Positions 4,292-27,737 of a DNA stretch of 64,000 bases are shown here, in pieces. A model generated the notes under the pieces. That model was not told where the DNA came from. It saw nothing but the letters and a program-made list of their open reading frames with translations, and ran no database searches. This DNA comes from Pontibacter sp. Tf4 (lineage in GTDB: Bacteria; Bacteroidota; Bacteroidia; Cytophagales; Hymenobacteraceae). How positions within the stretch are numbered: position 1 is the stretch's first letter; each line of letters opens with the position of its first letter. The position numbers and the translations under genes are program-made. Where the stretch lies: contig NZ_JACKZC010000001.1 of NCBI RefSeq assembly GCF_014212495.1, forward strand, positions 310,001-374,000, read 5' to 3'.

Positions 4292-5917
<1,626 letters not shown>

Positions 5918-5925
<8 letters not shown>

Positions 5926-13095: not shown

Positions 13096-13824
13096 TTATC
13101 GTAATGGCTTTAGCAAAGATTGGAAGTTGTGCTTTATCTGTTGTTGCACATCATTAGCAGCGATACCCCAAGCTTTCGACAGAAAATTAATAACAACTTT
13201 CACATCAGCTGGCTCGACTATTCTATTGTTATATTGGACATAAGGACCATCTGTTTCAGTTAACAGTTGGTTTCTAGGAATTTGCTTAATTAAAGTTTGT
13301 CCTTTATTTGATCGAATCATTTCTGGATTGACAGAAAAGTAATAACCCGATTCTGCAATTGTCTTTAGAATACTAGCAGAACCAGTATACCAATGAAATA
13401 TAGCCAAATTAATCTGGTGCTTCTTTAGCATTGTTAAGGTATCACTCTCCGCACCACGAGAGTGTAAACTTAAAAGCTTTTTTTTGCCTCTTACCTTACT
13501 CAAAATATAATCAAAGCTCTTGATTTGTCTTTTTTTAGTTGCTAAGCCAATACGGCTAAAGTCAAGACCTACTTCACCTATATAAGATGTAAGATCGAGA
13601 TACTTGTCAAAAAGGGAATATTCTTCTGCATGCCGATCTGCATAAAGAGGGTGCATTCCTAAAGCAATTCTAATATTTTTAAATCCCTGCAGATGTTGTA
13701 TGCCTTGCCCGAAGTGACTAGGAAGATTAGTCATTGCTAAAGTAGTTACACCTGCCTGGTCACAACGTTTAGCTACCGCAATGGGATCAGGATAAAGATC
13801 TAAATGACAGTGAGAATCTATCAT
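13096..13824 (-). CDS. qatD: QatD, TatD-like metal-dependent DNase of the Qat defence system
   Basis: 242 aa, TatD/amidohydrolase fold. The start has the metal-binding HxH (MIDSHCHLDLY, His5 and His7). Further ligands are visible in GEVGLDFSR, LLSLHSRGAE, AIFHWYTG and LLTETDGPYV. TatD enzymes are Mg-dependent DNases. In the Qat system described by Gao and colleagues (2020), the fourth gene is a TatD-like nuclease. The start codon overlaps the stop of qatC (ATGA), so the two are coupled. It is the last gene of the leftward four-gene operon. Family and context agree, so the assignment is firm. Confidence 0.9.
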   Translation of the reverse strand: MIDSHCHLDLYPDPIAVAKRCDQAGVTTLAMTNLPSHFGQGIQHLQGFKNIRIALGMHPLYADRHAEEYSLFDKYLDLTSYIGEVGLDFSRIGLATKKRQIKSFDYILSKVRGKKKLLSLHSRGAESDTLTMLKKHQINLAIFHWYTGSASILKTIAESGYYFSVNPEMIRSNKGQTLIKQIPRNQLLTETDGPYVQYNNRIVEPADVKVVINFLSKAWGIAANDVQQQIKHNFQSLLKPLR

Positions 13825-15194
13825 GGCATTCCGGCTTTGTGTCTGATTACGGAATCAGGATTTTGTCTAATCCAATCTTTTAGCTCTTTACGAGTTTTCT
13901 GGACTACATTAGCAAACTGCGGTACCATAGAAAAGTCATTTAGTCCGTTAACTATGAGCTCGGTTTGTATGTCATCAAAGCTTAAGTTATTTTTTAGAAA
14001 TTCAAGGCATGCGTCAAGATCTTGACCTCGTTTGCCAATTAATCTGGAATTTGATGAATCACGTTTTAACTCTTCTATATAAATACCATATGTAGTATTA
14101 TCAGCATAATTAGCTAGTGCTGCACGTCGATATACACAAGGCATACAGACACCACAATGGGTTGCACTACGCTTCCACCCGTTTTTGTGCCCACGTTTAC
14201 CACATGAATTTGAAAAGTTAATGATACTTAGTAAAAATGGCAAGTCTGCGCAATTTACTACCATCTCCCCTTTAGTTAGAGTCTCATAGGGGTTTGTCAC
14301 ATTATTCGCCAATTGTAAGCCACCAAGAAGCTGTCTTACATCTTCAAGTAAACGTGGATGCGTTGTACGGGTACTGCAAGCAGAACGTCTTGAAGGACTA
14401 AGTGGGTAATTCAACGATACGCTTCCGTTCTCAGGAACCCATACAGGTATGCTATGACCATATGCGTTCGCTGCAAGTACTGCTAAGCTAATAAACAAAA
14501 GAGATCGGCTTCGTAGGGTATTTTCTCTGGTGCCTAAGGACGCATTTTCCAAATACACTCCCACAGATTCGCTCCAAGCGATTGGCTGCTTAAATCTACT
14601 AGATAGTTCAGTATATAACTTTATTTGATCCCCTTTAGGCCCAGCCATATTTGGGTCATAATGTGAAATTAATAGTAAGTTCTTAGTCGGTTCTTGTTCC
14701 AGGAAGTCTATTGCACCGATTAAAGAGTCCAGACCTCCAGAAAAAAGGTTTACATGATCAATTGTTTTATGTGATAGCAGAACAGTGGCTTGGGAAGGTA
14801 ATACCAATGAACTTGTTGTGAATTGTACATCCCAATAATCACCAGTTAGAAAAGATAAAATTCCAGCCACTTCCTGCTCTTTACCCTGCCAATTAGTAAT
14901 ATCCAATACAGGCACTGTCATCTTCAGCTCGCGCGACCAGCCATCGACCGAGTAAGGACGACGCTCAATAAATCTATCAATGCCATATGCACAAGCTGCT
15001 ATAAAGAAAAAATCAAAGGCACTTGCTGGAGCATGAGCGCACAAATCTAATATTCCGTCGCAGTTTATAATAATGTCCGCACTTTGACTTTGATTAGGCG
15101 GTGTAGTTCGAGGATCGTTAAATACTATATGAGCGCGCAAAATATTGTCAGCTCCTATTGCTGAACCTGAGCTAATACGTAAATCTAATTTCAT
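13821..15194 (-). CDS. qatC: QatC, QueC-like protein of the Qat defence system
   Basis: 457 aa. The PP-loop motif SGGLDS is at residues 152-157, followed by a QueC-type ATP pyrophosphatase fold. A zinc site like that of QueC is formed by Cys331, Cys347, Cys350 and Cys353 (CGKRGHKNGW...HCGVCMPC). QueC makes the nitrile of preQ0; QatC is the QueC-like member of the four-gene Qat anti-phage system. The N-terminal 150 residues are an extra domain absent from housekeeping QueC. It shares TAATG with qatB and ATGA with qatD, showing tight coupling. No queuosine genes lie nearby, which supports a defence role rather than tRNA modification. Confidence 0.92.
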   Translation of the reverse strand: MKLDLRISSGSAIGADNILRAHIVFNDPRTTPPNQSQSADIIINCDGILDLCAHAPASAFDFFFIAACAYGIDRFIERRPYSVDGWSRELKMTVPVLDITNWQGKEQEVAGILSFLTGDYWDVQFTTSSLVLPSQATVLLSHKTIDHVNLFSGGLDSLIGAIDFLEQEPTKNLLLISHYDPNMAGPKGDQIKLYTELSSRFKQPIAWSESVGVYLENASLGTRENTLRSRSLLFISLAVLAANAYGHSIPVWVPENGSVSLNYPLSPSRRSACSTRTTHPRLLEDVRQLLGGLQLANNVTNPYETLTKGEMVVNCADLPFLLSIINFSNSCGKRGHKNGWKRSATHCGVCMPCVYRRAALANYADNTTYGIYIEELKRDSSNSRLIGKRGQDLDACLEFLKNNLSFDDIQTELIVNGLNDFSMVPQFANVVQKTRKELKDWIRQNPDSVIRHKAGMP

Positions 15195-15994
15195 TATTGA
15201 AAGATAACTAGTACACTATCGAAAATATCGTCTATAATTTGATGCCCCTGTGGCCCGTGCCAATTTATTTGTGATATAGGTTTTGTGGCTCCCATTACAC
15301 GTACACGGCCAATTATGTCCAGCTTAATTTCATCAAACGTGGCTGAAGAAACTGCCTTTCCTCGATCTTGTGTAATTTTCTCCTGAAACCTCTGAGATAG
15401 ATGCTCAAAAATGTAAAATCCGAAATATTCGCATAATAGAAACTCTACACCATTTGCAGCGATTGCGCCTTGCATAACTCTCTCAAGGTCTTCTGGTGTT
15501 TGGGCTTGTTCAGCATAATGTTGCATGAGGTGATTACAGGCTGCGTTAGCTGCCGTTTCATCCATTCCTGTGCTTGCATCGGAGCAATAAGCCACAATAC
15601 GTCGTATGATTTCATCATTGGTGAGGCCAGTAAGATTAGCTAAAGGGCTGGTGACAGTAGACAATGCCGCAGCTAAACCACCAGTAGCAACTACTGACAA
15701 AAATCCAGAGAGACGCTGAGCTCCACGACGACCTGAGCGGCCGAGCGTAGCAGAGCGACCTGATTTTACTGCTGCTCGCCCACCGGAAGCTTGAATAAGG
15801 CGCCCTACAGTTTGTTTTACCTGTTCTTGCCGACGCTTAGTGAGTTGTTGTTGCTTTTTAGTATTAGGTTCATCTTTTTTTTCTTCAGTTTGTTCTTTTT
15901 GAATTGTGCCAGCAACAGAAGTAACACCTCTTGATATGTTCCCCCAGTTGGGCTCTCCAGTAACTCCCGGTACAATGCGTTGTGTAGTTCCCAT
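15194..15994 (-). CDS. qatB: QatB, accessory protein of the Qat defence system
   Basis: 266 aa. The N-terminal ~100 residues are low complexity and basic (Lys/Gln/Arg stretches such as KKQQQLTKRRQEQVKQTV, then RSGRRGAQRL). The C-terminal ~165 residues are a helical domain with acidic patches. No enzyme motif is visible. QatB proteins have no assigned activity; the identity here comes from its size, its composition and its place between the KAP ATPase and the QueC-like gene. The start overlaps the qatA stop by one base (TAATG), as does its own stop with qatC. It is probably part of a complex with QatA or QatC. Confidence 0.85.
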   Translation of the reverse strand: MGTTQRIVPGVTGEPNWGNISRGVTSVAGTIQKEQTEEKKDEPNTKKQQQLTKRRQEQVKQTVGRLIQASGGRAAVKSGRSATLGRSGRRGAQRLSGFLSVVATGGLAAALSTVTSPLANLTGLTNDEIIRRIVAYCSDASTGMDETAANAACNHLMQHYAEQAQTPEDLERVMQGAIAANGVEFLLCEYFGFYIFEHLSQRFQEKITQDRGKAVSSATFDEIKLDIIGRVRVMGATKPISQINWHGPQGHQIIDDIFDSVLVIFQ

Positions 15995-17904
15995 TATTTC
16001 TTTTTAGTAATGAAAGCCTTTCCAATCTTAGATTTAGGATCATAAACAGTAGCTAGCTCCATAATAGAAGGTGTTTTGTTTGAGATCAATTCTATAGTGT
16101 TATGTATGTGGTATGGAATGTCCGTATGATTGGTTTTACCTAGTGCTTCCTTATAACGAACAAGAGCATTAGGCATTTCTATAGCTATAAATTCCAAGAA
16201 TATGCGATGTCCTTTTACCAAAGCAGGTCGCTTAACGACTTCCTTTACTAACATTTCTAATAGTATTTCCTGCTCTGTTTCAGTTAAAGTTGCAGTTGCA
16301 TTTAGTGCTTTAGCCCGTAGAATAGTTTCAGAGCCGTAGTCCATTAAATCCCTGAAGATATTCTTTATATGTGAAGGAATAAGCGAGGCTCCACTTATGC
16401 TAGTTGATAGCTGATCTCGTGATAACCAGAAGTAATCTCTCAAATCAACTTCAGTAAGCTTGGGTTCAACTAACAGCCATCTTACTAATTTAGAAGACTT
16501 CCAAACTGCCCCATACTTGGCACTGATCTCGTCAAACTTAGAATCACTAGCCCAGCTTTCTAGTTCAGCTAATTCAACTGACTCTCCCTGTTGTGAAGCT
16601 TGCCAATCATATAGCTTCCTGAATTGCTCAGGCTCTACATATTCTAACACCATAAGCTTAGCTAAAACATCAAGTTCGAAAGTGGCTAATTTAGCTACAC
16701 CAGCTAAGCGAGTGCGCAGGGTAAATGAATTTAAGAACCGTTTAATTTGTCTTGGATTACCTTTAAGTCCTTCTGTAATGACAGGTGCTAATGATGTTAT
16801 TAAAGGAGCACTCTGCCGCAGTTGCTCTTCTTCTGTAGCTGTTAATAGAGTTTGAATATCACCGAATCCAAAGGTTCCATAGCGATTAGCCGATCTAAAC
16901 TCTGTAAATTTATCTAATACACATTGCTGCCTTTCTGTAGTCAAGTACTTTTCACAGAACAACAATGACAAGTAAGTCTCTACTTCTGGGTCAGATAGAC
17001 GCGGTAAGTGATATGGCACTTGAATTAGCTTTTCAAGATAATCTTTTACGAATTGATTACTTATTTGCTCTGTCCTTGTGTCAGCGTTTGCAGGATCATC
17101 AGAGGTCATACGAGATTTGTATCGAAATTCTATCGCATGTTTAACGATACGGGGATCAGCACCTATTACAAAAGCTGTTTTGGGAACATTTAGGAAAAGC
17201 TTAATAGCCTCTAAATTCTCAATAAGTCGCTCAGGACTACAACGGTCTAAGTCGTCAATCAAGACTACTAGACGCTTGATTCTTGTTTCTGCTAAAAGCT
17301 CTTCAAACCTATCTCGGAATTCGCGAATGAGCATAGCTTTTTCCTCTGGCGCTTCGTTAAAGATTGAGTTTGAATCGGCTGGTTCAGCCATAGCTTTATC
17401 TGAGACTAACTCCTCACCTAAACCAACTATACCTGCTACCTTTTCGCCTAATCCTGTAGGTAATGCGCCCGAAAATGCAGCAGCAATACCTACAGGACCA
17501 CCTACAGAAGCCATAATTAGTGGTAGCGCTACATTCTTAAATCCTAAGCCCATTGCCCGCATCCAGTTAACAGATTTAAATAGCTGCGTAACTCTAGATT
17601 TAACCTCTGCTCCAAACCTCTTCTCATCATCAAAAGCCTTAAGAATAGAGTCAAGTAAGGCGGCTTTGGCATCATCATATCCTTCAAACACCCAACCGTT
17701 AAAGTATAGGCAAACGGTATCATCATCAAGTGCCTGCAATCGATTCTCCATCATCTTCATGATGCTGGATTTACCACTTCCCCAATCGCCAAACACGCCT
17801 ATTGTCACAGGTAGTATTCCATCATCCAGCACTAATGCTTCCAGTAAATCGGCATGCACCCTAAAACCAAGTAAATCATTGGTGGTTTCGCTATCTGACC
17901 ACAT
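15994..17904 (-). CDS. qatA: QatA, KAP-family P-loop ATPase of the Qat defence system
   Basis: 636 aa. Walker A is GDWGSGKSS (residues 39-47). Walker B is RLVVLIDDLDRC (211-222). These are classic KAP NTPase motifs; between them lies a hydrophobic, Gly/Ala-rich insert (about 115-165), as in KAP proteins, that may touch a membrane. The later FVIGADPRIVKHAI and NPRQIKRFLNSFTLR segments also fit the KAP family. QatA is the first gene of the operon QatABCD. The ATPase probably senses or powers the response; the trigger is unknown. The promoter must lie in the AT-rich gap 17905-17982, but I see no clear TAnnTTTG there. Confidence 0.92.
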   Translation of the reverse strand: MWSDSETTNDLLGFRVHADLLEALVLDDGILPVTIGVFGDWGSGKSSIMKMMENRLQALDDDTVCLYFNGWVFEGYDDAKAALLDSILKAFDDEKRFGAEVKSRVTQLFKSVNWMRAMGLGFKNVALPLIMASVGGPVGIAAAFSGALPTGLGEKVAGIVGLGEELVSDKAMAEPADSNSIFNEAPEEKAMLIREFRDRFEELLAETRIKRLVVLIDDLDRCSPERLIENLEAIKLFLNVPKTAFVIGADPRIVKHAIEFRYKSRMTSDDPANADTRTEQISNQFVKDYLEKLIQVPYHLPRLSDPEVETYLSLLFCEKYLTTERQQCVLDKFTEFRSANRYGTFGFGDIQTLLTATEEEQLRQSAPLITSLAPVITEGLKGNPRQIKRFLNSFTLRTRLAGVAKLATFELDVLAKLMVLEYVEPEQFRKLYDWQASQQGESVELAELESWASDSKFDEISAKYGAVWKSSKLVRWLLVEPKLTEVDLRDYFWLSRDQLSTSISGASLIPSHIKNIFRDLMDYGSETILRAKALNATATLTETEQEILLEMLVKEVVKRPALVKGHRIFLEFIAIEMPNALVRYKEALGKTNHTDIPYHIHNTIELISNKTPSIMELATVYDPKSKIGKAFITKKK

Positions 17905-19257: not shown

Positions 19258-19655
19258 TTCGCTTTCGGTTTATTTTACAGCAACTGTTTAAGCTGATGCC
19301 ATGGCTGTTAAGGGATTGGATAATAAGCATCTTTGCAGTGCATGCAGCTGCGTGCATTGTCTTTGAAGTAGGTCATGCGGATGTGGAGTAAATATCATTT
19401 GTTTTCAATAGTCTTAGGTAGCTTTAGTAATGCTAAAATACTATAATTTTATATTTAATATATAGTAAGTTGCTAATGTTTATTTTCCCGCACAGCAGCT
19501 AATTCTACTGCTAGACATCCCATTGCAAAAACGGCCAGCGTATTACCTGCACCGGCCCTTTGTTTCTTATTTTGTAAAGCAGCCACTGCTTTAGCAGCTA
19601 ATTGGGTATGCCTAATTTATCCGGCATCTGTGGCCTATACCCGACATTCCGGCCA

Positions 19656-19993
19656 TTATAGACATAAACAGTGGCTTTTTTCCTCCCCTTCTTTGGTAAG
19701 TAGGTCTTCCTCCACTAATTCTGTTAAATCCCGTAAGGCTGTTCGGTCTGTTATGCTAAATTTTTCTTTGTACTTACTGTTCTGAATCCTGCAATCATTT
19801 TTCCAAAGCAGCAATGTCTCTACTGCCGGTTATTTAGTGCTAGCCCCTTAAGATGCTCTTCTGAATAGATGTCTTTGAATAATGTCAAGGAAACTCCGCC
19901 AATGGTCTTAATCTCTGGCTACGGAAATCCCAGGCGCCGGCACTCTTCTATGATCTTTACTGTGTACCGGAGCATCTTCATAATGCGGCGCAT
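19656..19993 (-). pseudogene. Remnant of a schlafen/RecG-like ATP-binding protein C-terminus
   Basis: Reading leftward from 19993 gives KIIEECRRLGFP-stop-PEIKTIGG, then LTLFKDIYSEEHLKGLALNNRQ-stop, then, after a frameshift near 19795, SKYKEKFSITDRTALRDL and TELVEEDLLTKEGEEKSH before a TAA at 19656-19658. These match, in order, the C-terminal region and winged helix of AlbA_2/HATPase_c_4 proteins as I know them. Two stops and one frameshift show decay. It may come from the same family as the pseudogene at 9569-11215, but it is a different copy. Confidence 0.65.
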
Positions 19994-20473
19994 TTATAGC
20001 CTCTATAAGGTTTTATTTTGTACGTAAGCTTACAGATGGTCAGGAGTCGTCTGTTCTGCGGCTAGAAACGCTGTTTAGCGACAAAAGGCACTACAAATAC
20101 TACATTGATACACCGCTGAAACCAGGTCCACAACTGCGACTGTTGCCAGCTCTCTAATAGTACCTTACCTGATTGCTTCGAAGGGCAAATACAAGCTTCT
20201 TCAACTGCCCAAATGAAGTTGCTTTGAAGCCAGGCTTTTCTACTGGAAAAACATTCCTGCCGCAGAAAAGCTATTTCTTACAACTGTATTATCGATACAA
20301 AATTTCAGGTACATACAGGTACAACTACTTTAAGCTTATTTAGCATAGAATCTTCCGTGTCAAAAAGCAACTCAATAATAGCTGCAGGGGCAAAGGGCAA
20401 TGCGGTGAAGATTAATCAAATGCAGTGCTCAAGAAAATGATCTTTTCTCATAGGTAGAATGGCCAGGTACTAC

Positions 20474-21861
20474 CGCAAAATAGCCAAAAGCTATTCTCCC
20501 GTAGTTGCGGTTCTACCCAATGCCTTTTTGATCTATAAAATCATGTAATTTTAGTAGTCTTTTCTGGCAGCTGATGCAGTTTAAAAGTGTTAAGTAAGAA
20601 AGCGTTATTAACCGGTCTATTGTTATCCTAATTTTACGTCGGCGGATCTAATTTAACGCAAAATAGATTAACGCATGCCCACGCATTTGCAACGGATTTA
20701 TGTGCTGAATCTAGCTGTTCTAAAAAGGCAGCAAAAACGGCGCAAGATTACGGCAACAACACCGGTGCTTTGTAGCCAGTTTATCTATTCAGAGCAGCCA
20801 CATTTACGCACTTCTTAATTGCTACTCTCCATATGAAGAAAAAGCAGGTGGTCTAGAGACTAGGCAACATGCCATTTTGCGTAAATCCGATGCCACAAAA
20901 ACAACCCATTTTTTTAAGTAATACTTGAGTGATAATATCTGTTAACTAACAGCCTATTTTGCGGCCCCATTACTACTATTCCATGAAATTAGAGTAGGTG
21001 CAGAACACGCAACAATAGCGTAAAAAGGAGCTAACTTTAAGCAAACCGCGCGTATACACTAAAAGCGCTATAATGGCTGCCAAGTATGCCTGCTAAAATA
21101 GTGCACCCTTACAGGCCTTTGTACCACATAAATAGTTCGTTGCTGTGCTTCAAATCAAAACGAACTTTACTTGGCTATTTATAAAAAACAAGAGCAGGAC
21201 ATTTATACGGCTCAGGACGTTGTAACACGATAAATGACCCACTGCAGGAAACTATATATTATGGGATTTTATGCTGTATTAACTACCGCTTATTATTCTA
21301 GTTTCTATTCAAGTCTTAAAGCAAAGAAGTAGGTGCCTTTTTAGGCAGCATAGCTTGCCATAAAACAGAGTAGAGCTGTCGTGATAGAATCAGCAGCTTT
21401 TATCGCAAAAACAGCATTTTTTGCGCAGAAACTAGCATCCCATTTTAGATTTTTATTAACAATGTTTACCTATAATAGCCCTTGTTCGAACTTCCCGTAA
21501 AAGGGGTGTATTTGAACATATTACAACAAGTTTCCTAAGCGCATGATTTATTGCTTCATCGGCTACCATATTTATAGGGCAAAAAATCCTTTCGCAGACG
21601 TGCCGTTATAACGCAGAAATGTGCACTTCATACGACCGCAAAAAAGGGTATGCACTAACTTCTGTTTTAGACTACTTCCGGTACGGCTAGTTGGCGTGCA
21701 AAATCTGGTCATTTTAAGAGCCTATTTTCGTGCTACAGATGAGCGGAAACAGGTATGAAAAATACCACCTAAAACTGCGCTAGTTTATGGTCATTTTGCG
21801 GCATAAAAAACATTGTTGTTTTAGGTATGCATTGTTGCGTGTCTGGAGCACCTATTTTGCG
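20474..21861. repeat. Cluster of nine TTTTGCG/CGCAAAA words
   Basis: Perfect copies at 20474, 20657, 20875, 20957, 21404, 21419, 21637, 21794 and 21855 (first base). A 7-mer read on both strands is expected about 0.2 times in 1.4 kb at even base composition. Several copies sit next to CCTA or GTCA. The copies are not evenly spaced and no longer repeat unit was found by eye. Confidence 0.6.
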
Positions 21862-22794
21862 GCTTCGTTGGCTGCATTCGCACAAAATTGATTTTACAGC
21901 AGGTATGTAAAATGCGGGGCTCAAACAATAGAAAATATGACCAGTTTTCTGCCTGACTAGTAGCACCTGATCTTACGTCTAAAAAACGATTATTTGCGGC
22001 CGCAGAAAGTAGCGTTTTAGAACAGAAAATTCTCCTGCTGAATTTTACTTAGCAGAGCGTTAAAAAAGTAGATCTTTTACGGAGTGTTATCTGCTATTTT
22101 AAAAGGCATTTTCTTTAATGGTTACTTTGCTACCGAGAGCAGTCGTAGGTATCGCTTTTAGGTTGTAAAAAACAGGAGTTTTATGGCAGAAGTTAATTTG
22201 CAAAAGCAGCATTATTGGATGGGAATTATGACATGTAAAGTCCACCATTTGGAGTAGGACTGTTTTACGTTGGAAGCGCTTCATTGCCACAAATAACTTA
22301 TACAACTTTACTGTTTACGCGGTAAAATATAGCTGTAAGAAAGGCCTTCTTTTTGGGCATTGAGTAAGGCTACTTTGGCTATTGGATATGCAATATCTGC
22401 AGACACCGAAAAATAGCCATTTTAATACACTTTAAGATCATTAATCTCACTACCTAACACAGTTGGACGGAACTCCACGCAGATGTTTTTAGCGTGCACT
22501 AAGATCTGTTTATAAAGTCTCTGCCGAAGAAGCGCATCACACCCTACAAATGCGGTAAATTAAGTCGATTTTTTTTATAGTTCTATGCATAAATCCTACA
22601 AGAAGATAAAGTGAAAAAAATACCAAACTGACAGCTAAGCAACGTACCTTTCGAGAGAGCGAACAAAGAAGATTAGATAACAAGGTAATAGAATTACATG
22701 CGCACTTTCAATGACTCTAGAATATTGATAAGAGTAAGTTTAACTAGTAGATGTAATACAAATTCATTTATTTACCTGTTAAAATAAATACAAG

Positions 22795-22802
22795 TAGCTT
22801 TG
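22795..22802 (+). promoter_or_regulatory. Putative -7 box of the FtsZ-Septu operon
   Basis: TAGCTTTG matches TAnnTTTG and lies 75 bases before the ATG at 22878. The -33 position only offers TTTA-like sequence, so the call is tentative. No other convincing promoter is seen in the 300 bases upstream. Confidence 0.4.
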
Positions 22803-22877
22803 CTAAGTCTTTTAACTGATTATACTACTACGAGTTAGTGACGACTATTCATACGCAAATTGTAAAAAGATCTTTAA

Positions 22878-25250
22878 ATGAAGGTACTTGAAGTAAATCT
22901 GGAAAATATCCGAGCTATTGAGAAGCTAACTTGGAAATTACCTGATAAATGTCCGCCAGCTGGATGGCATGTTATCTTAGGTGACAACGGATCAGGCAAG
23001 TCGTCATTCTTAAGAGCTTTAGCAATAGGTTTACTTGGGTTAGAAAGATCCACAGCACTTTGGGTAGATTATGCTGCCTGGTTACGGCAGAATGCAGATG
23101 AGGGCCATATTTCCATCAATATACAAGCTGACGCAGGTGATGAGTTAAGTAATGCGAATGACGGCATCATTAAGGTGATTGGTGTTGGGGGCGGTGGAAG
23201 CAACGCTGTGAACCATATGTATAGCCAAGGCATTAAAGATGTTGAGTTTGTCATATGTAATACCGATGCTCATGCTCTTAAAAGTAGCACCGTTCCAACA
23301 AGGCTTTCTATCGGCCAAAACCTTACTGAAGGTTTTGGAGCTGGCGCTAACCCTGAGAAAGGCCGTCAGGCTGCTCTGGAAAGCAAAGAAGAAATTCGCG
23401 AAATGCTGGGCAATGATACCAAAATGGTATTTATTACAGCAGGTATGGGCGGTGGTACCGGTACAGGTGCTGCTCCGGTAATCGCTAAAGTTGCAAAAGA
23501 ACTAGGTATACTTACTATAGGAGTTGTCACCATTCCCTTTGCTTTCGAAGGTCGCAAAAAAATGCAGGCTGCTGAAGTTGGCGTGAAAGAACTACGCGAA
23601 AACTGCGACACAACGCTAGTTATCCACTGTGACAATTTACGAGAGATATTTGGTAACCTTACTATTCGTGAGGCATTTACAAAAGCAGATAATATAATAA
23701 TGGCAGCAGTAATGCCTGTTATCGATTTGGTAACGATTACGGCTGAAGTCAACATCGATTTTGACGATGTTAAAACAGTAATGAAAGACTCTGGTGCCGC
23801 AGTGATGGGTTCTGCGATAACAGAAGGCGAAGGCCGCGCGCTACGTGCTGCTGAAGAAGCTCTTTCATCTCCGTTATTGAACAACACTGACATCCATGGT
23901 GCTCAGAAAATCCTTCTTTCAATCATGTCTGGTGAGCAGGCTGAACTTGAAATGGACGAACTGACTGAGATTACAGAATATATCCAGGACAAAGCAGGCC
24001 AGGAAGCTGAAGTTATCTTTGGACATGGTATTGATGCTGACTTGGGTCAAAGCATCCGTGTTACGGTAATTGCAACTGGTTTTGAACTTAGAACTACAAC
24101 TTATACTTCAGCTAATTCAACTCTAAATGATTCTGATTTAATAGAGCCTTCTCAAGAAGAAAATAGTATTTTATTTGAGCATTCAGGATTTGAGAAACTA
24201 TCTGAAAGTTATTCTGAGGAACATTTACAGCATAAAAAGTACGTACTAAAAATAAACTTTGGCTTTAATAGTTCATTAAACACATACTGGACAAAGTCTA
24301 CAGAAAACGGAGTTGATTTTTCCTATAAAACAGCATGGGGCCATAACAACGGATGGTTTTCAGCAGGGTTTGGTCCCTTCAGACGATTTACCGGAGGGGA
24401 TGCCGAGTATGAAAAGCTTTTAGACGGTCCTAAAAACAAAAAGCTTGCTGCCCACCTTTCCCTTTTCAAAGAAAATGTTGCGTTGTCTGAGGCACTTAAT
24501 TGGCTTCGCGAGTTGAAATTCCGAAGCCTTGAGTCGCATACTTCTGGTTTTTTAGACCTAATGAAGTCTTTTATAAATCAACCTGATTTTTTACCCCATA
24601 ATACTCGGCTAGAAGAAGTTTCATCCGAAGGTATTTTCTTTTGTGATGCGAACCATAGCAGAGTAAATATTTTTGAATTGAGTGACGGCTTTCGCTCTGT
24701 GTTAAGTTTAGCGTTTGAACTGCTCCGCCAATTAGAAAGTAATTATGGGGAAAACATTTTTGAAGTAATACCTGATACTGAGATGATTCGAGTTAAAGTG
24801 CCAGGTGTTGTTTTAATTGACGAAATAGATGCTCACTTACATCCTGTATGGCAAAAACGGATCGGGTACTGGTTAACGAAGCATTTCCCGAAGATTCAAT
24901 TCTTTGTAACTACACATAGCCCTCTTGTCTGTCAAGCATCTGAAAAAGGATCGGTTTTCCGGTTACCAGTTCCAGGAACAGACGATTTGGGAGGTATGGT
25001 AGAGGGGGCTGATTTAAATCGCTTGATATACGGCAATGTATTAGAAGCTTATGGTACAGAAGTTTTTGGGTTGGCATATACGCAATCAGAAGCAGGTCAA
25101 GCTTTGGCGACACGGCTTACTACTTTAAATGAAAAGGCACTTAAGACCGAGTTGACTGATGCGGAAAAGATAGAACGGGATGATTTGCGAAAGATTCTCC
25201 CAATAAGTGACTCTGAAGCCTTTGTAAAGAAAATATTAGGTGATTTATGA
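22878..25250 (+). CDS. ptuA: Septu (PtuA)-like ABC-type ATPase with an inserted FtsZ GTPase domain
   Basis: 790 aa in one open frame. Residues 1-90 are the N-terminal ATPase half with Walker A GDNGSGKSS (35-43). Residues about 96-402 are an FtsZ core: GVGGGGSN (102-109), NTDAHALK, GGGTGTGAAP (191-200), FAFEGRKKM and the T7-loop NxDxxD as NIDFDD (292-297), ending VTVIATGF. Residues about 403-790 resume the ATPase: the Q-loop region GWFSAGFGPFRRFTGGD, signature LSDGFRSVLS (601-610), Walker B VVLIDEIDAHLHP (644-656) and H-loop VTTHSP. Without the insert the protein would be about 480 aa, close to its AAA family. It overlaps the HNH gene by ATGA. ATPase plus HNH is the Septu PtuAB pattern. The FtsZ part lacks the C-terminal linker and tail. 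I know of no described defence protein with this architecture. Confidence 0.88.
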   Translation: MKVLEVNLENIRAIEKLTWKLPDKCPPAGWHVILGDNGSGKSSFLRALAIGLLGLERSTALWVDYAAWLRQNADEGHISINIQADAGDELSNANDGIIKVIGVGGGGSNAVNHMYSQGIKDVEFVICNTDAHALKSSTVPTRLSIGQNLTEGFGAGANPEKGRQAALESKEEIREMLGNDTKMVFITAGMGGGTGTGAAPVIAKVAKELGILTIGVVTIPFAFEGRKKMQAAEVGVKELRENCDTTLVIHCDNLREIFGNLTIREAFTKADNIIMAAVMPVIDLVTITAEVNIDFDDVKTVMKDSGAAVMGSAITEGEGRALRAAEEALSSPLLNNTDIHGAQKILLSIMSGEQAELEMDELTEITEYIQDKAGQEAEVIFGHGIDADLGQSIRVTVIATGFELRTTTYTSANSTLNDSDLIEPSQEENSILFEHSGFEKLSESYSEEHLQHKKYVLKINFGFNSSLNTYWTKSTENGVDFSYKTAWGHNNGWFSAGFGPFRRFTGGDAEYEKLLDGPKNKKLAAHLSLFKENVALSEALNWLRELKFRSLESHTSGFLDLMKSFINQPDFLPHNTRLEEVSSEGIFFCDANHSRVNIFELSDGFRSVLSLAFELLRQLESNYGENIFEVIPDTEMIRVKVPGVVLIDEIDAHLHPVWQKRIGYWLTKHFPKIQFFVTTHSPLVCQASEKGSVFRLPVPGTDDLGGMVEGADLNRLIYGNVLEAYGTEVFGLAYTQSEAGQALATRLTTLNEKALKTELTDAEKIERDDLRKILPISDSEAFVKKILGDL
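23163..24083 (+). other. Inserted FtsZ core domain within the ATPase gene
   Basis: 307 codons, in frame at both junctions, encode the FtsZ nucleotide-binding and C-terminal core subdomains but not the FtsA-binding tail. From memory of Bacteroidota FtsZ, most of the sequence is close to host FtsZ, whereas residues about 246-284 (the loop before and along central helix H7) differ strongly. That pattern suggests capture from a Bacteroidota host followed by local divergence. The junctions fall between secondary-structure elements of the ATPase. Confidence 0.85.
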
Positions 25251-26044
25251 TCTACCTAACTGCCCCATTAGCTCTTGAGGTAGCTGATCAGCAAGCTCTG
25301 CAAGCTATCCAACAACAAGTAAATAATGAAATAGATTATAGTACTCGGGTTTCACAAGCTAATCAACGCTGGAAGACTAAGCCGGTAGCACTTTTTCAAC
25401 GAGTTCGTACAGCTCTGGAATCAACCTGTCCGGGAGCTCGACGTTGTGGCTACTGCGAAGATTCTCTTGCGGATGAAATAGAACATATCCGTCCTAAAAG
25501 TTGGTTTCCTGAGCTATCCTTCGACCCAAACAACTACCTCTTTGCTTGCGGTCCTTGCAATGGTCCTAAAAATAACTCTTATGCTGTTGTCGATGCAACC
25601 GGTGTATTAACAGAAGCAATCCGTTCTATACATCAAGCTGTTGAGCCACCTCCAGCTGGCAAGGAAGCCCTATTACATCCTCGCCATGACAATGCCATTG
25701 ATTACTTCTTTTTGGATTTAGAAAATACTTTCCAATTTAAACCGCACCTTACTCTCGATACCCAACAGAAAGTTCGTGCTGAATATACATTGAAAGTACT
25801 TCGTATTAACAAAGATCCTTTATGTGTAGCTCGTAAAGAAGCTTTTTATGATTTTGTAAGTCGGATGAAGAGTTACTATTTAGCAATGAAGAGTGACGAG
25901 TCACTAAATAACCTCACTCGCTATCGTAGTGAACTACTTCAGAAACAACATATATCTGTTTGGCGCGAAATGCAAAGACAATCTATCTCTCTACCCTTCT
26001 TACGAGAGCTTTTTGCTCTCGTGCCAACCGCAATAAGCTGGTAA
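25247..26044 (+). CDS. ptuB: HNH endonuclease partner (PtuB-like, TIGR02646-type)
   Basis: 265 aa. The zinc-finger HNH core is clear: CGYC (Cys67, Cys70), DEIEHIRPKSWFP with His80, NNY (about 95-97) and ACGPCN (Cys101, Cys104). The remainder is helical, as in TIGR02646-type HNH proteins that pair with AAA/ABC ATPases in Septu and related defence systems, including the PtuAB module of retron Ec78. The ATG shares bases with the stop of the upstream gene, so both proteins should be made together. It would be the DNA- or RNA-cutting effector. An IS1182 element starts 39 bases after its stop, leaving the gene intact. Confidence 0.85.
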   Translation: MIYLTAPLALEVADQQALQAIQQQVNNEIDYSTRVSQANQRWKTKPVALFQRVRTALESTCPGARRCGYCEDSLADEIEHIRPKSWFPELSFDPNNYLFACGPCNGPKNNSYAVVDATGVLTEAIRSIHQAVEPPPAGKEALLHPRHDNAIDYFFLDLENTFQFKPHLTLDTQQKVRAEYTLKVLRINKDPLCVARKEAFYDFVSRMKSYYLAMKSDESLNNLTRYRSELLQKQHISVWREMQRQSISLPFLRELFALVPTAISW

Positions 26045-26082: not shown

Positions 26083-27737
26083 GTGGTTGTTGCACAACTA
26101 CGTTTAAGAATTACACTTTCTGCGTCTAAACTTCCTAAACTTATAGCTTCACACTAGCTTCAGGAGTTTCCGTTTCATAGCGCAGTAAAAACGTAAAAGA
26201 GTTGCTTACAAAAGCTCCTTTTTCCAGCACCTGCGCCATGCTTACAGCTCTGGCTGGCTTGCATTTCATGTACTTTTTGAGGTTGAAGGCAACGGCTGCC
26301 AGCAGCATTACTTTATGCGCTCCTGATTTGCCCAGCCCGTTGATCTTGCGCAGCCCATAGTGCTGCACCAGGCTTCCAAACACTGGCTCTATGGTGCTTT
26401 GGCGAAGCTTCTTCATGCGATTTCCTTACTTGCTATGTTGCCTGGCGAAAGCCCGCTGGTATTGCTCGTCATACGCGGTGCGGGTAATTTTGCGGCACCT
26501 GGTCTTAGGGGCACAGGTAGCTTTGCGAGGACATTGCCTGCAATCACTGGGTGCTGCCCAGTAATGTTTCAGTAACCTGCCGTCTAGTGTATGATCAAAG
26601 CTTTTGAACTGTAACGGTTTGCCCATCGGGCAGTTAAACTGATCTGCTTTCTTATCATAGGGAAATCCATTGATTTCAGGCTTGTACATTCCAAAAACCG
26701 GTATCCAGGCAGTAATCCCCCGTAGTTCCAGAAAGTAATAGTTCGACCCATTCGAATACCCTGCATCGGCCAGCAGATCTAGCATCAATAGCCCATTGGT
26801 TAGGAGTCGGCTTTGCACCTGCCCAGTCAGGTTTGACAGATACTGGCTATCACGGCCATCTGCATAATCGGCCTGTATATGTGAGTTCACTCCCATTGCT
26901 GTATCAACTGCCATGCTGCAGTGGTAGTTGAGCTTTCTGGCCTTTCCTGTCTTGACAGAGATGCGGGCATCCGGATCATGTGGGGCATAATGCCTTTTGT
27001 TACTAACCAGCTGCGCCTTCTCATGATTTGCCCCTAAAGCAGTTGGAGCGCTTTTGAGATTTTGCTGATGCTTTTCCAGCTTCCTGAGCTGATGGGCAGG
27101 AGCGGTAATAAATGGTAGCGGCTTAATGTTCTTAGAATGTTGAACGTCATGAAGCGTAGTGGCCAGGTGCACTTGCTCAGTCTCCTGCGGTTGTTTTAAC
27201 AGCAGGCTTTCCATCGAAGCGTTGGCTTTAACAGGAGCGGAATCGATTGCCTACACACTGCCCGAGACCATGCCTTGTTCTACGCACAGGCTGACAACCC
27301 TGTCGAACAGGGTTTCAAACAGGCGTTCAGGGTACAGCTTGCGGGTGCGTGATACGGTGGAGTGCCAGGGTAACGGTTCGTCGAGCTGGTAGTCCAGAAA
27401 GTATAACAGGTCCAGCCGAAGACTGCAGTGTTCGATCAGCTTTCGGTCTGATATGATGTTTTCCAGATAGCTTATCAGGCAGAGCTTGAAGAAGACGACC
27501 GGATCAATACTTTGATGGCCGCACTTGCCGTAGAAGGGAGCCGTCAGCTCATAGAGAAACGAAAGGTCAATCCTGTCCTTGAGACGCCGGTAAAAGTTAT
27601 GTTCCGGCACATGAGCCGAAAGCGAAAAGAGCAATTGCCGCTCATCTTTAAAATTCTTCCTTCCCTGTATAACACCATAGAATTAACCACTACCTATTAT
27701 TTAACGACTATATCTAAGTTGGTTGTGCAACAGCCAC
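26083..27737 (-). mobile_element. IS1182-family insertion sequence, degenerate
   Basis: The ends are inverted: GTGGTTGTTGCACAAC (26083-26098) on the left and, read inward from the right, GTGGCTGTTGCACAAC (27722-27737), one mismatch in 16. Inside is one transposase frame on the minus strand with two nonsense codons. Length about 1.65 kb fits the family. I find no clear target duplication: the flanks are CGAGG and GGAGA. The element separates the defence genes from the arsenic operon. Confidence 0.85.
26141..27634 (-). pseudogene. IS1182 transposase, inactivated by two in-frame stops
   Basis: A single frame of about 497 codons is interrupted by TAG at 27251-27253 and TAA at 26426-26428. The three parts read FYRRLKDRIDLSFLYELT and SIDPVVFFKLCLISYLENI (N-terminal helical domain), AIDSAPVKANASMESLLLK and AVDTAMGVNSHIQADYADGRDS (DDE core), and MKKLRQSTIEPVFGSLVQHY (C-terminal, with the conserved E). 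All are typical of IS1182 transposases. Because neither frame nor spacing is lost, the mutations look recent. The element is probably immobile unless helped by an intact copy elsewhere. Confidence 0.88.

Follow-up and report, generated by a model that had tools for sequence, protein, structure and literature searches.

The locus and its fused gene

A 64,000-nucleotide stretch of the Pontibacter sp. Tf4 genome (contig NZ_JACKZC010000001.1, positions 310,001 to 374,000 of the forward strand; hereafter the window) holds a gene in which the core of the cell division protein FtsZ lies inside a PtuA-type ATPase, followed by a gene for a PtuB HNH nuclease. An earlier note, made by reading the letters alone, had described the pair as a Septu-like ATPase with an embedded FtsZ domain, coupled to an HNH nuclease. 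The ATPase open reading frame (ORF), 22878-25250, encodes 790 amino acids (aa) with no internal stop, and the stop codon of ptuA overlaps the start codon of ptuB by 4 bases, as that note had seen. The features are as follows.

22878..23135, + strand: N-terminal part of the PtuA ATPase (aa 1-86), placed by PADLOC and Pfam searches and by alignment with the plain PtuA proteins P0059, P0080, and P0089
22980-23003, + strand: Walker A motif GDNGSGKS (aa 35-42), before the insert, identified by reading
23160..24092, + strand: embedded FtsZ core (aa 95-405), made up of the GTPase and FtsZ_C domains; the C-terminal linker and tail that division FtsZ has are missing
24093..24245, + strand: linker back to the ATPase (aa 406-456), probably flexible (predicted local distance difference test score, pLDDT, below 50 for aa 406-450 in the model)
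24246..25250, + strand: C-terminal part of the PtuA ATPase (aa 457-790 and stop), placed by the best-matching stretch of PADLOC PDLC00269 (474-779) and by invariant alignment columns
After the insert, + strand: signature LSDG (aa 601-604), Walker B VVLIDE (aa 644-649), and H-loop histidine (aa 680), motif names by reading
25247..26044, + strand: PtuB HNH nuclease, 265 aa, PADLOC PDLC00340

Profile searches bear out this description. The 790-aa protein scores 465 bits against the PADLOC PtuA model (PDLC00269), and its partner scores 298.2 bits against the PtuB model (protein 1-265 on model 1-268 of 268). Pfam places the Tubulin/FtsZ GTPase domain at aa 98-257 (160.9 bits), FtsZ_C at aa 306-403 (82.2 bits), and the best stretch of AAA_21 at aa 445-684, while the NCBIfam ftsZ model TIGR00065 matches aa 87-412 with 372.2 bits (cut-off 295.2). 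The FtsZ motifs GVGGGGSN (aa 102-109), GGGTGTG (aa 191-197), and NIDFDD (aa 292-297) are all present, so the core is intact, in frame, and flanked by ATPase motifs, as first noted. The Pfam HNH match in PtuB, at 21.4 bits, lies exactly at its cut-off of 21.4.

The locus has a PtuA-type ABC ATPase with all four motifs and an adjoining PtuB HNH gene, as in Septu. The described PtuA is a continuous ATPase without a foreign domain, however, and we therefore file the locus as a Septu variant, because the FtsZ core interrupts the ATPase at aa 95-405. The embedded copy has the Tubulin-GTPase and FtsZ_C domains and the FtsZ fold; by alignment, it lacks the C-terminal linker and tail, and it has no ftsA neighbour. 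An intact second division FtsZ is ruled out by the missing tail and the flanking ATPase parts. The genome has its own separate ftsZ on another contig, with the tail present and next to an ORF that reads like ftsA.

The FtsZ core is predicted to sit in a loop of PtuA. The earlier note had asked whether the two ATPase halves could close around the core, and in the predicted structure of the 790-aa protein both halves have the same secondary-structure elements as P0080, a plain sister. A fold search with the whole model listed FtsZ chains only, so P0080 was folded to represent the ATPase.

Distribution of the fusion and supply of its FtsZ part

We scored 7,999 candidate homologues and listed the best 120, among which seven proteins (P0002-P0008) combine FtsZ with ATPase domains and cover 87-100% of the query; an eighth (P0093) is a piece of a broken fusion gene. 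The fusion occurs at 90% identity in Pontibacter fetidus BT213, at 70% in P. flavimaris, at 64% in Hymenobacter radiodurans, and at 48-59% in P0003-P0006 and P0008, with the FtsZ insert at the same alignment position in all conserved fusions. Another protein aligned as a candidate, P0103, proved to be plain FtsZ and was dropped. The absence of such homologues would have counted against the earlier note, which had also argued that the insertion was not random; the keeping of the same fusion in independent genomes agrees with it. Together with the search scores, this excludes chance.

The embedded copy and the genome's own ftsZ share 80% DNA identity over 920 ungapped bases, too little for the former to be a recent misassembly of the latter. 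This level of divergence and the presence of the same fusion in other genomes rule out an assembly chimera. Public records call P0002 and P0007, the proteins from P. fetidus BT213 and H. radiodurans, "cell division protein FtsZ", and the fusion is therefore hidden in current annotation. The P0007 record begins within the FtsZ part, and the locus itself reads 794 aa.

When 204 genomes of the family were searched with the C-terminal ATPase part, 19 matched at an E-value of 1e-15, and five of these 19 carry the fusion (the window genome, P. fetidus, P. flavimaris, H. radiodurans, and H. arizonensis). Each of the four genomes with an intact fusion also has a separate FtsZ match, and in all three of the other intact loci ptuB again overlaps by 4 bases. 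In the H. arizonensis copy (locus L037, 9544-11708), both the FtsZ-PtuA gene and ptuB look broken, as if decaying jointly. Wider searches gave three matches at 1e-60 in 395 genomes of the phylum and 19 at 1e-40 in 390 genomes of the order; apart from the window genome and P. fetidus, the open frames span 368-513 aa and, going by length rather than by domain content, have no room for the insert. In a species-level collection, FtsZ lies inside the ATPase in three of 32 loci, one of them the broken copy. None of the 202 matching plasmid records covers 80% of the query, the fusion is in none of the 33 matching phage records, and the viral contigs searched held no relative of it.

The two parts of the fused protein have different histories. 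In a tree of the ATPase (insert columns removed, 60 rows), the nine fusions form one group with a Shimodaira-Hasegawa-like approximate likelihood ratio test value of 98, adjoining plain PtuA P0059, P0080, and P0089. This is a quick tree without bootstrap, and it uses 51 of the 113 plain PtuA listed. The FtsZ tree (59 rows, with an outgroup) is bootstrapped and uses a selection of the available host FtsZ. Here the cores sit in three places, well-supported branches force three label changes, and 0% of 200 bootstrap trees unite the nine cores. A single clade was also rejected (p 0.0256) by an approximately unbiased test on another quick tree, which included 10 cores. P0093 was used in that quick tree, in the alignment, in the count of host-invariant sites, and in the FtsZ profile for the species-level collection, and was omitted from the ATPase tree, the bootstrapped FtsZ tree, and the third-codon tree.

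The window and P. fetidus cores nest inside the FtsZ of a Pontibacter subgroup (branch supports 98/94 and 100/99). With support of 97/96, the P. flavimaris core also falls with Pontibacter, where its basal place is weakly supported (86/32). The other six cores group with Hymenobacter FtsZ (99/97), the only known host in that set being H. radiodurans; the exact placement of the long branches P0008, P0006, and H. radiodurans within the group is unsure. Fusion cores of known host thus group with the FtsZ of their own genus. A tree from third codon positions, with four embedded cores, puts the window and P. fetidus cores in the same Pontibacter subgroup (97/92) and does not place the P. flavimaris core firmly within Pontibacter. 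For the window and P. fetidus cores, this rules out amino-acid convergence as the cause of the FtsZ tree, and their nesting therefore reflects descent rather than look-alike selection. Silent divergence (synonymous substitutions per site, dS) agrees with the tree: the window core lies at 0.73 from the ftsZ of one other genome of the genus, at 1.39 from the ftsZ in its own genome, and at 2.8, near saturation, from the P. flavimaris core.

Since the ATPase parts form one group while the FtsZ parts fall in three places, one chassis has been loaded with host-lineage FtsZ repeatedly. The FtsZ part was supplied from host-lineage FtsZ more than once, as is expected of a bait. Such supply could take the form of segment replacement by recombination or of fresh capture in the same loop; both mean repeated host-lineage supply.

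Other PtuA proteins carry inserts too. In three Hymenobacter PtuA of 950-970 aa (L065 219-3068, L067 2763-5672, and L068 2811-5672), NPHP3-type TPR repeats spanning about 500 residues occupy a second site, which follows P0080 residue 199. The next ORF reads like PtuB in all three; a fourth such PtuA (L069) is cut by a contig end. A Thiodictyon PtuA (L062, 2724-4529) has a TIR domain at this second site. The TIR domain of P0161 falls roughly where the FtsZ loop lies: the insert aligns after residue 105 and the domain match starts at aa 110, which places the boundary only approximately. Given these TPR and TIR inserts in its relatives, PtuA looks like a chassis with two plug-in sites.

Selection on the embedded core and its proposed role

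The embedded cores are under purifying selection. Between the window genome and P. fetidus, the FtsZ part has a ratio of nonsynonymous to synonymous substitution rates (dN/dS) of 0.151, compared with 0.064 in the C-terminal ATPase part and 0.142 in PtuB. The window genome's own division FtsZ gives 0.021-0.029 against five genomes of the genus, so the core is kept by selection yet drifts faster than division FtsZ.

Which parts of the core are kept can be asked residue by residue. We used the 259 residues that at least 90% of 33 host FtsZ share, took the expected retention from 29 other FtsZ of the class, and judged significance by 259 circular shifts, omitting P0003 and P0005 as near kin of P0004. 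Mann-Whitney values for the Pontibacter-type cores were set aside because the underlying 0/1 data are coarse. The footprint of the T7 division inhibitor Gp0.4 was fixed beforehand from PMC13423816, where hydrogen exchange marks E. coli FtsZ residues 199-206, 262-270, and 292-303. Two further segments, the C-terminal subdomain (aa 343-403) and H6-H7 (aa 258-292), were chosen post hoc from the alignment. In the four Hymenobacter-type cores, the footprint is retained above expectation (4/259 shifts as high), with the excess located in 262-270 and 292-303, and the P. flavimaris core gives 16/259. Most of the Gp0.4-binding site of E. coli FtsZ falls within the C-terminal subdomain. Retention of this subdomain is matched in 3/259 shifts for Hymenobacter-type cores, 33/259 for window and P. 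fetidus, and 2/259 for P. flavimaris; with these mixed statistics, there is moderate support for it being the part retained best.

We consider it somewhat better than an even bet that the FtsZ part is a built-in bait for phage division inhibitors, wired to the PtuAB nuclease. It would display the inhibitor-binding face, so that a phage protein directed at host FtsZ to block division would bind the embedded copy. The loop holding FtsZ might then transmit the binding and change the state of the ATPase, and PtuB, once released or positioned, would cut an essential nucleic acid and likely halt the infected cell. With the host protein in cis, a separate complex would not need to be caught. The TIR and TPR modules inserted in other PtuA also speak for this reading. 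The target of PtuB may be tRNA or DNA, judging from other PtuAB: two such systems reportedly cut tRNA-Tyr (PMC13096335 and PMC11555353), and another, as cited in those papers, nicked DNA, while the Eco4 effector lowered no tRNA. An antiviral role is suggested by the Septu homology and the defence neighbours described below. The broader proposition, evenly balanced in our view, is of an integrated decoy that renews its FtsZ from host ftsZ while the receptor stays constant, with PtuA in general a two-loop-site chassis for baits, sensors, and effectors (FtsZ, TPR, and TIR).

Several results weigh against a bait. The synergy loop (E. coli 199-206) is not specially retained (mean residual -0.04), and taken core by core, the footprint excess is significant only in H. 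radiodurans (Fisher p 0.015; 0.136-0.721 in the other six tested). The window and P. fetidus cores show no footprint signal, with 137/259 shifts as high. Some cores are far diverged, which is odd for a mimic: P0008 keeps 114 of 241 host-invariant sites. By the dS values given above, the window core is also further from its own genome's ftsZ than from that of another genus member, so the core tracks the genus and not the strain.

The earlier note had left two options side by side, a decoy or sensor and an attachment to the host Z-ring. We prefer the decoy or sensor because host-lineage FtsZ was taken up repeatedly and the subdomain retained best is the C-terminal one. Docking, in which the FtsZ part joins or caps host filaments, so placing the nuclease at the division site, or senses the state of the filament through contact with host FtsZ, and from which a phage inhibitor might displace it, seems unlikely to us. 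It could draw on the T7-loop residues kept in most cores (N207 in 8/9, D209 in 8/9, and D212 in 9/9) and on the kept C-terminal subdomain, and a host-lineage supply would also preserve filament compatibility. However, the Hymenobacter-type cores retain H6-H7 less than any other segment (11/259 shifts as low), though ordinary FtsZ retains it at an average rate (0.69 vs 0.71); retention as low occurs in 27/259 shifts for window and P. fetidus and 75/259 for P. flavimaris. Some nucleotide-contact residues are altered in several cores, and the embedded copy lacks the C-terminal tail, the FtsA-binding peptide.

Rather less probable still are two explanations in which the core recognises no phage protein. 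One is a general growth-arrest device that senses the host's state, triggered by a host division inhibitor or by loss of FtsZ under stress. SulA and MciZ, two inhibitors made by hosts, reportedly block FtsZ much as Gp0.4 does (PMC13423816), but the patchy spread (five of 204 family genomes), the defence neighbours, and the Septu homology point to defence. The other, about as improbable, has FtsZ aiding PtuA oligomerisation or adding GTP control, with no recognition role. PtuA is a trimer of dimers (PMC11980606) and the GGGTGTG loop is unaltered in 7/9 cores, but the nucleotide-pocket residues drift, and a purely structural module or GTP switch leaves the repeated supply from host-lineage FtsZ unexplained. 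To an assembly chimera or neutral insertion we give almost no credence: besides the oddity itself, what speaks for it is that one of the five family copies is broken, and against it stand three other genomes that share the fusion, at 90, 70, and 64% identity, and dN/dS of 0.06-0.36 in the parts compared.

Returning to the built-in bait, its nearest functional precedent is CapRel-Ebc, a protein unrelated to the PtuA fusion, which is activated by the complex of Gp0.4 and FtsZ and by neither alone (2026; PMC13423816). Both tie bacterial immunity to a phage protein that targets FtsZ, but CapRel-Ebc uses separate host FtsZ and a fused toxin-antitoxin effector, whereas here an FtsZ copy lies within an immune ATPase paired with an HNH nuclease. 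The earlier note knew of no described system of this type. That holds for an FtsZ core inside an immune protein, of which our searches of 5.39 million open-access papers turned up no description, but not for phage-bound FtsZ activating immunity, which is already published. Among those papers, only PMC10440598, a toxin-antitoxin network study, contains both words, Septu and FtsZ.

Set beside Septu itself, the novelty is a core of 310 residues inside PtuA, and the locus is a Septu variant whose recognition principle is possibly new. Retron I-A (Eco7/Ec78) likewise has a PtuAB effector under an added control part, there a reverse transcriptase and multicopy single-stranded DNA (PMC11555353), while the added part here is FtsZ in the same chain. 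Our proteins miss the NCBIfam cut-offs for retron PtuA and PtuB (NF041760, 106.8 vs 500 bits; NF041761, 49.4 vs 150 bits). A search of window positions 1-40000 against Rfam at gathering scores, which addresses the msr-msd RNA of a retron operon, matched only a tRNA. In PARIS, where AriA is known in complex with Ocr (entry 8v45), we know of no inserted host protein, and the effector is another one. Plant nucleotide-binding leucine-rich repeat receptors (NLRs) with integrated decoys carry a copy of the pathogen's target fused into the immune receptor, although these plant proteins are unrelated.

If the FtsZ part is indeed a bait, bacteria have arrived at the solution that plant NLRs use in their integrated decoys, and a genome would reveal which host protein the phages of its lineage attack. 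It would then offer a direct route to the division inhibitors of Pontibacter and Hymenobacter phages, and how a generic ATPase-nuclease pair gains specificity would become testable.

Neighbouring genes

About 5 kb upstream of ptuA lies a Qat-like operon (window 13096-17904), in which QatA, QatC, and QatD match PADLOC models; a 266-aa protein at the QatB position, between QatA and QatC, has no PADLOC match. Genes for a CBASS cyclase, a SAVED-HNH effector, and a phospholipase are found close to the P. flavimaris copy of the fusion. Further upstream in the window, the 3' part of a tRNA-Met gene (4292-4366) overlaps the end of a recombinase-like gene (region 4292-5925), an arrangement which suggests an integrated island. 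The other end of this putative island was not found, and there is no 30-base direct repeat to mark its ends.

The approximately 3.6 kb directly upstream of ptuA (19258-22877) contain no ORF of at least 69 aa and no Rfam match at gathering scores. Directly 3' of ptuB, positions 26141-27634 hold transposase-like ORF pieces which, by reading, are probably a decayed insertion sequence. Beyond the defence genes, positions 31500-63583 read as a long run of metal-efflux-like genes (P-type ATPases, RND pumps, and a multicopper oxidase).

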